The position numbers and the translations under genes were made by a program. Under the pieces are notes generated by a model that made no database searches, was not told where the DNA came from, and saw only the letters and a program-made list of their open reading frames with translations. DNA of 64,000 bases, from assembly GCF_030418305.1 (NCBI RefSeq), contig NZ_JAUHPX010000002.1:372001-436000 (forward strand). The letters are read 5' to 3'. This document shows, piece after piece, positions 21,883-23,912 of the stretch. How positions within the stretch are numbered: the first letter of the stretch is position 1; every line of letters starts with the position of its first letter. Source of the stretch: Demequina lignilytica (GTDB lineage: Bacteria > Actinomycetota > Actinomycetes > Actinomycetales > Demequinaceae).

Positions 21883-22027
21883 CGTCGCCTCCCTGGCCCG
21901 GGGCATCGTCCGCACCCCGTCTTCCCACCGTAGTAGCAGGAACGCCGCCGCGTCAGGAGGCCCGCACGGGTTGCCTCGCCCCCGGCCCGGCGCTACCCTT
22001 GCGGCGGAGCGACGAAAGGTCAGGACG

Positions 22028-22129
22028 ATGAGCATCGAGCGCCGCGCGGTCACCGCGCCCGCCTCTGCCCGCCTGATGCGCTCCTCCGACGCGATGTGCT
22101 GCCGCGCCTGCGTCTGCTGCTGTCTGTAG
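22028..22129 (+). CDS. polycysteine leader peptide upstream of cysK
   Basis: A 33-codon reading frame ending in MCCRACVCCCL, with six cysteines in the last ten residues before the stop. GAAAGG precedes the ATG and a TACCCT -10-like box lies at 21994-21999. Cys-rich leader peptides before cysteine-synthesis genes are known from actinobacteria, where ribosome stalling or flow at the Cys run reports Cys-tRNA supply. The position, 138 bases ahead of cysK, fits attenuation control. Cys is rare elsewhere in the window, so a CC-x-x-C-x-CCC run is not chance. Confidence 0.85.
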   Translation: MSIERRAVTAPASARLMRSSDAMCCRACVCCCL

Positions 22130-22267
22130 AGCGCTGACCGCCCCCGAACCCGCCCGCGGGTCGACGGGACACGGCCGCCCAGCGCTCGCCCCGGCATCGT
22201 TCGCGATGCACCGTTGTTGCACCATCTCGACGCAGGTCCCCGACTCAAGGAACAGGAAGACACCGCC
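22130..22267 (+). promoter_or_regulatory. candidate cysteine-responsive attenuator
   Basis: The leader between the peptide stop and cysK can fold. GCATCG-TTCG-CGATGC (22194-22209) is a perfect hairpin with a UUCG loop. AGCGCT blocks at 22130 and 22181 can pair around it. A second short frame begins at 22206 with HRCC after the ATG and runs out of frame into cysK. CAGGAAG serves as the cysK ribosome-binding site. How stalling on the leader peptide switches these structures cannot be settled by eye. Confidence 0.5.
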
Positions 22268-23203
22268 ATGGCCCGCATCTATCAGGACGCCACCGCCCTC
22301 ATCGGCAACACCCCGCTCGTCCGCATCAACACGCTCACCGAGGGCGTCGACGCCACGGTGCTCGGCAAGCTCGAGTTCTACAACCCCGCGAACTCCGTCA
22401 AGGACCGCCTGGGCGTCGCGATCGTCGACGCCGCCGAGGCGGACGGCTCGCTCCAGCCCGGCGGCACGATCGTCGAGGCCACGTCCGGCAACACCGGCAT
22501 CGCGCTCGCCATGGTCGGCGCGGCGCGCGGCTACAACGTCGTGCTCACCATGCCCGAGACCATGTCCAAGGAGCGTCGCGCCCTGCTGCGCGCCTTCGGC
22601 GCGGAGCTGATCCTCACGCCCGGGCCCGAGGGCATGCGCGGCGCGGTCGAGGCGGCCACCAAGATCGCCGAGGAGCGTCACGGCTCGGTGCTGGCGCGCC
22701 AGTTCGCGAACGAGGCGAACCCGGAGATCCACCGCAGGACCACCGCCGAGGAGATCTGGAACGACACGGACGGCGAGGTCGACATCGTGGTCGCCGGCAT
22801 CGGCACCGGCGGCACCATCACCGGCGTCGGCGAGGTCCTCAAGGCTCGCAAGCCCTCCGTGCAGATCGTCGGGGTCGAGCCGGCCGAGTCCCCGATCCTC
22901 AACGGCGGCCAGCCGGGCCCCCACAAGATCCAGGGCATCGGCGCGAACTTCGTCCCGGAGATCCTCAACACCGAGATCTACGACGAGATCATCGACGTCG
23001 ACGCGGAGACCGCGGTCGCGACCGCGCGCGCCGCCGCCCGCAAGGAGGGGCTGCTCGTGGGCATCTCGTCCGGCGCCGCGATCCACGCCGCCATCGAGCT
23101 GGGCAAGCGCCCTGAGAACGCCGGCAAGACCATCGTCGCGATCATCCCCTCGTTCGGCGAGCGCTACCTCTCCTCGGTGCTCTACGCCGACCTGATGGAC
23201 TAA
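22268..23203 (+). CDS. cysK: cysteine synthase A (O-acetylserine sulfhydrylase)
   Basis: PLP enzyme of 311 residues that makes cysteine from O-acetylserine and sulfide. The PLP lysine is Lys45 in NSVKDRLG; the substrate loop TSGNTGIA and the phosphate-binding GTGGT loop ([10 protein letters not shown]) are intact. The end GERYLSS is typical. It stands behind a polycysteine leader and is followed 61 bases later by cysE, so both steps from serine to cysteine are together. The start ATG 22268 is fixed by the family N-terminus. Confidence 0.97.
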
Positions 23204-23264: not shown

Positions 23265-23912
23265 ATGGCATCCGACATCTCAGCGCTCGCCCGAGCGCTC
23301 GAGGACATCCGCACCGTGCAGCGCCGCGATCCTGCGGCGCCCGCGTGGTGGGTGATCGCGGGCTCCTACCAGGGAGTTCACGCCGTCTGGTACCACCGGG
23401 TCGCGCACTGGTTCTGGCGGCACGGCATGCGGTCCTACGCCCGGCTGATCTCGCAGCGGGCGCGTCGCGCGACCGGGATCGAGATCCACCCGGGCGCGCA
23501 GCTCGGGCGGCGGCTGTTCATCGACCACGGCACGGGGGTCGTGATCGGCGAGACCGCCGTGGTCGGGGACGACGTGCTGATGTTCAACGGCATCAACCTG
23601 GGCGGCACCACGATGAGCCCCGGCAAGCGCCACCCCACCATCGGCGACCGCGTCGTGATCGGCGCGGGCGCCAAGGTGCTCGGACCCCTGCGGGTCGGCT
23701 CCGACGCCCGCGTCGGCGCGAACGCCGTGGTGGTGAAGGACATCCCCGACGGCGCCACCGCGGTCGGGATCCCCGCGGTCATCCGCAGCCACCCCGGGCC
23801 CACCGAGGCGTCGACCGCCGCGTCGGCGGTGGACGCGGGCGACTCGCACCGTCACCCCGATCCCGACCAGCCGCCGGAGCCGGTGCGCGAGCCGGCGATG
23901 TACTACATCTGA
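23265..23912 (+). CDS. cysE: serine O-acetyltransferase
   Basis: Hexapeptide-repeat acyltransferase of 215 residues making O-acetylserine. The left-handed beta-helix is seen as GIEIHPGAQLG, IDHGTGVVIGETAVVGD and VVIGAGAKVLGPLRVG, with catalytic His in the IDHGTG region. After the helix a 40-residue flexible tail ends in MYYI. A C-terminal Ile is the residue that inserts into the CysK active site in the cysteine synthase complex, so the two neighbouring products probably bind each other. GGAAGG precedes the ATG. A strong terminator follows. Confidence 0.96.
   Translation: MASDISALARALEDIRTVQRRDPAAPAWWVIAGSYQGVHAVWYHRVAHWFWRHGMRSYARLISQRARRATGIEIHPGAQLGRRLFIDHGTGVVIGETAVVGDDVLMFNGINLGGTTMSPGKRHPTIGDRVVIGAGAKVLGPLRVGSDARVGANAVVVKDIPDGATAVGIPAVIRSHPGPTEASTAASAVDAGDSHRHPDPDQPPEPVREPAMYYI

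Follow-up and report, generated by a model that had tools for sequence, protein, structure and literature searches.

In E. coli trp-type attenuators, the position of the ribosome in a leader decides whether a downstream hairpin forms. Leaderless polycysteine short ORFs are said to have been described in mycobacteria by Canestrari in 2020.

Ribosome occupancy of Cys-rich uORFs has been observed in mycobacteria (Shell 2015; PMC4633059), and translation attenuation has been reported for M. smegmatis cysteine genes, according to a citation in PMC13236596. Cys leader peptides were predicted in Mycobacterium, P. acnes and B. longum by Seliverstov (2005; PMC1262725); no conserved terminator hairpins and no obvious terminators were found in those leaders, Rho was suggested and the mode of regulation was unknown at that time. 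In Rhodobacterales, the uORFC-8-2 motif lies 5' of cysS and ends in an intrinsic terminator (PMC8632094).

The leader examined here lies 5' of cysK-cysE in a window of 64,000 nucleotides (i.e. the whole stretch of DNA analysed) from the 2.9 Mb genome of Demequina lignilytica. Positions refer to this window and all features located in it are on the + strand. The feature is genuine and belongs to a known class (i.e. the polycysteine attenuators), with a structural variant in the form of a hairpin, P1, at the stop codon of the leader ORF. Judged from sequence and its conservation, the leader is very probably a cis-acting, cysteine-responsive, ribosome-mediated attenuator of cysK-cysE. P1 is highly likely to be a working part of the switch, and the attenuator and P1 taken together, the readout not being included, make up a likely reading.

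The cysteine-rich uORF and its gene context

The leader ORF (uORF; 22028–22129) has 33 codons, starts with the ATG at 22028, ends with a UAG stop (TAG, 22127–22129) and is given in the open reading frame listing of the window as the peptide MSIERRAVTAPASARLMRSSDAMCCRACVCCCL. Both the sequence and this listing confirm an earlier note, which had described a 33-codon frame with a ribosome-binding site and the ending MCCRACVCCCL. A Shine-Dalgarno site (GAAAGG, 22014–22019) is located eight bases 5' of the ATG, and AAAGG or GGAGG occupies this position in relatives. Further 5' is a promoter-like pair (i.e. TTGCCT at 21971–21976 and TACCCT at 21994–21999, with a 17-base spacer); the pattern TTGCC-N17/18-TAnCCT was found 5' of the uORF in most Demequina relatives in the leader comparison. 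This pair was not picked up by a scan with an E. coli-type consensus. As the conserved promoter-like pattern is placed about 30 bases 5' of the uORF and is followed by a short predicted 5' UTR with a Shine-Dalgarno site, the uORF is probably Shine-Dalgarno-led and not leaderless. The mycobacterial parallel drawn in the earlier note holds for a Cys-rich uORF ahead of cysteine genes but probably not for a leaderless start, the conserved promoter and Shine-Dalgarno site being found instead. The locus resembles the mycobacterial polycysteine short ORFs in having a Cys-rich uORF 5' of actinobacterial cysteine or sulfur genes, but differs from the leaderless ORFs in that the Demequina uORF appears to be Shine-Dalgarno-led, is placed ahead of cysK-cysE and is tied to a covarying hairpin, with a fixed UAG and an invariant UGU. 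In Myceligenerans salitolerans, the cysK uORF comprises just 11 codons (MRIVRMCRLCR) and seems to be leaderless, TAGGCT being placed seven bases 5' of its ATG; P1 is retained in this leader as GAGCGUC/GACGCUC.

As the earlier note had stated, cysK and cysE follow the uORF. Matches were obtained for cysK (cysteine synthase A, 22268–23203) to TIGR01139 (E 1e-132) and for cysE (serine O-acetyltransferase, 23265–23912) to TIGR01172 (E 4e-69). The Shine-Dalgarno region of cysK (AAGGAACAGGA) is at 22247–22257, and most relatives have AAGGA or AGGA at this position. The arrangement is that of amino-acid attenuators, in which biosynthetic genes are preceded by a short ORF containing codons for the amino acid that they produce.

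A uORF ending in Cys-x-UAG was present at all 46 Demequinaceae cysK loci (the window included), at 114 to 209 bases before cysK. The same type of uORF was found in Cellulomonas, Actinotalea, Oerskovia and one Isoptericola MAG among loci fetched by cysK similarity alone, and most cysK loci of Arthrobacter, Agromyces, Rathayibacter and Terrabacter were without such a frame within 400 bases. Its presence in the same place in 46/46 Demequinaceae loci and in Cellulomonadaceae loci fetched through cysK alone indicates, at the level of sequence comparison, that the uORF is not a chance frame. No matches of the leader peptides to NCBIfam or Pfam models were detected. The N-terminal part of the uORF varies freely and its length ranges from 17 to 47 codons across leaders, and this free variation of the peptide fits a codon-sensing role. 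Almost all Demequina leaders have AGC as the second codon (22031–22033; i.e. ATGAGC), despite an otherwise variable N-terminus. Conservation and gene context strongly support the earlier proposal of a cysteine-sensing leader for cysK-cysE.

Hairpin P1 and the codons at its foot

Hairpin P1 (22129–22187) was located from covariation and the fold of the window, with arms GAGCGCUG (22129–22136) and CAGCGCUC (22180–22187). It was missed by the earlier reading and is the main RNA feature of the leader. The first base of P1 is the G of the UAG stop of the uORF and the stem has up to ten pairs; nearly all leaders read UAGAGCG...CGCUC directly 3' of the Cys codons. Covariation was examined in an alignment of 75 distinct sequences, an alignment holding opposite-strand matches of the symmetrical hairpin being left out. 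In a register fixed by the four lowest pairs, these pairs (GAGC/GCUC) are invariant and the upper pairs exhibit compensatory changes, with UA in 54, CG in 14, AU in 3 and GC in 3 sequences for pair 7 and CG in 59 and UA in 10 for pair 6. Double-change cells, which count sequences and not independent events, numbered 50 as compared to 10.8 in shuffles, and the covariation score was 0.225 as compared to no more than 0.095 in slid controls. Within Demequinaceae alone covariation was modest (8 double-change cells). As in attenuators, a conserved RNA structure is thus found within reach of a ribosome on the leader ORF, P1 being placed at the stop codon and covarying.

The leaders of Seliverstov (2005; PMC1262725) are alike in having Cys codons near the stop and no obvious U-tract terminator, but no conserved hairpins were found there whereas P1 is conserved across families. 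Similarly, uORFC-8-2 (PMC8632094) combines a Cys-codon uORF with a structured RNA element, but its Cys codons are inside the first stem, it has an intrinsic terminator and it belongs to another phylum and another gene. Folding of the leader, proposed in the earlier note as a check, did predict P1, but the whole leader of the window was no stabler than shuffles. This last result, together with the abundance of spurious ORFs in the window, is what could be said for frame and hairpin being chance features of GC-rich DNA; set against some 80 genomes in which the frame end and its fixed distance to P1 are conserved, and against the covariation of P1, such an explanation has a negligible probability. 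In two Cellulosimicrobium cysK leaders, the uORF continues beyond the usual stop as far as a UGA, and the UAGAGCG with which P1 starts is missing; natural variation of this kind could be used as a test of P1 function.

The invariant sequence CUGUC (22120–22124) emerged from the leader comparison and contains the Cys codon UGU (22121–22123) two codons before the stop. The second-last sense codon was UGU in 79/79 leaders compared, of which those found by the element-built model are not independent for invariant bases and those of Demequinaceae and Cellulomonadaceae were found through cysK. Among the Demequinaceae leaders found through cysK, all 46 had UGU at position -2, whilst Cys codons elsewhere in these uORFs comprised 217 UGC and 27 UGU; Cys codons of the genes in the window were 78 UGC and 6 UGU. 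The stop was UAG in 46/46 Demequinaceae, and genes of the window prefer UGA. Further Cys codons are carried by most leaders at -4, -5 or farther back, and one leader had no Cys codon other than -2 within 12 codons. Because P1 starts five bases past UGU, a ribosome whose A site holds this codon would be expected, from the usual ribosome footprint, to meet the foot of P1. Pairing of CUGUC with a downstream GACAG was rejected, being present in 6/60 leaders against 7.4 expected.

A second hairpin, P2 (GCAUCG-UUCG-CGAUGC, 22194–22209), corresponds to the UUCG hairpin of the earlier note. It does exist in the sequence, and similar hairpins occur in many Demequina, but it is confined to this genus and is not the general structure; as a regulatory hairpin P2 was demoted, being altered or missing in several members and without a U-tract. 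A second sensing frame had also been suggested at 22206 (MHRCC), its ATG falling within the 3' arm of P2; this suggestion is not borne out, a counterpart being found in only 9/46 loci with the window counted. A GYGUU motif follows P2 in most Demequina (22210–22217 in the window). Pairing of the P1 3' arm with GYGUU fits many but not all Demequina and showed no overall excess over shuffles.

Proposed mechanism and alternatives

In the proposed mechanism, ribosome progress on the uORF would decide cysK expression, and expression of cysK-cysE would track how much charged tRNA-Cys is available. When cysteine is plentiful, the ribosome would complete the uORF and depart, P1 would fold and expression would drop. 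When cysteine is scarce, the ribosome would pause, its A site occupied by the last Cys codon, and would cover or prop open the lower four pairs of P1 (GAGC/GCUC), such that expression would rise. The least certain step is the readout, for which P1 is suggested to act on continuation of the transcript (i.e. Rho-assisted or U-tract-less termination) and not by hiding the cysK start. P1 is favoured as the OFF state because the sole universal Cys codon is where a waiting ribosome would obstruct it; a transcript-level readout of this kind is nonetheless advanced tentatively, as quite possible rather than probable.

The cysK leaders were searched for the usual partners of an attenuator hairpin. A scan for terminator-like sites found 0, and P1 is not followed by a U-tract, the following 6 bases having a mean U of 0.23 and being mostly C (3.9 of 6). 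No conserved alternative partner of the P1 3' arm was detected downstream (mean z of 0.0 and -0.3). Masking of the P1 5' foot gave a predicted accessibility of the cysK start site of 0.53, as compared to 0.54 with P1 allowed (60 leaders). Accessibility, U-tract and partner results together support neither a textbook terminator/antiterminator pair nor simple start-site hiding. The leader would share with the E. coli trp-type attenuator a control of the downstream hairpin by ribosome position, but differs in that no antiterminator partner and no U-tract were detected at cysK. The accessibilities, albeit from minimum-energy folding that may miss the relevant structure, also bear on translational attenuation of the M. 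smegmatis type, in which a stalled ribosome would prevent a structure from hiding the cysK ribosome-binding site. Such an explanation has a precedent in the M. smegmatis cysteine genes (as cited in PMC13236596) but is unlikely, given the near-identical accessibilities and a spacing between P1 and cysK of anywhere from about 38 to 176 bases.

In Demequinaceae, the linker before cysK is rich in C and poor in G, so that a role for Rho is conceivable: C minus G in the 60 bases before the cysK Shine-Dalgarno region was +0.20, the remaining genes of the window having a value of 0.00 (sd 0.14). This composition also speaks for the opposite, trp-like polarity, in which stalling at earlier Cys codons would allow P1 to form as an ON structure that hides C-rich RNA, and a ribosome at UAG would cover the P1 5' arm and leave the 3' arm and linker open, so that Rho could load and terminate transcription. 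This polarity is the better fit for leaders with many upstream Cys codons, since ribosomes stalled at -4, -5 or farther back, where most leaders have Cys codons, would by the inferred geometry be too far back to touch P1, and Rho has been proposed for the mycobacterial cys leaders (PMC1262725). The C bias of the cysK linker is, however, small in this window, the only universal Cys codon is that at -2, where a waiting ribosome would obstruct P1, and one leader lacks any other Cys codon within 12 codons; the opposite polarity is accordingly held to be unlikely. The single stop-rooted hairpin could be the whole switch, acting without antiterminator, U-tract or start hiding, and the invariant UGU, five bases before the hairpin, could be the decisive sensor because a ribosome decoding it touches the stem foot. 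This strongest form of the proposal is possible but rather doubtful.

Distribution, a second leader and significance

A covariance model of the element (i.e. R1) was searched in 396 genomes of the order of the host with E values up to 0.01. Matches were obtained in 79/396 genomes and 17/109 genera of the order, a few weak ones arising by chance. Outside the genus, 40 matches were fetched; 31 sit 5' of cysK, with cysE following in nearly every case, and the remaining nine had E values of 3e-4 or weaker and no cysK nearby, and were taken as chance. Among 395 genomes of the class, only the genome of the window and two weak matches were recovered. The order-wide and class-wide matches indicate that the element is confined to part of the order. 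No further copy was detected by R1 in the genome of D. lignilytica, and a second match in this genome to TGYTGYTGYnnnTAG, antisense in a ribosomal-protein cluster, was taken as chance. Searches of Rfam gave nothing at the gathering threshold, with only a chance match (E 6.2) in 21900–22300.

Whilst the same genome was being searched for sulfite reductase, another uORF (MAIPANLRAHMCCVRCAMCLSA) was met outside the window (contig C14:245176-245244), 5' of a gene of the nitrite/sulfite reductase family. In 29/30 Demequina loci this reductase gene is preceded by a related uORF with Cys codons, the remaining locus ending at a contig end. A -10-like hexamer is located about seven bases before its ATG, as in leaderless genes, and this uORF is apparently leaderless. 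Any of the three stops is used, and this free choice emphasises the link between P1 and the UAG at cysK. At least two candidate cysteine-sensing leaders are thus present in this genome.

A literature search, largely without subscription papers, found no description of the cysK leader element, and the hairpin part of the switch appears to be new to the literature. With its conserved, covarying hairpin locked to a stop codon, this clade offers a well-delimited RNA element for mutation, and from the invariant UGU the site at which ribosomes would pause can be predicted precisely. If P1 works without the usual partners, this leader would be a simpler attenuator than the textbook one.
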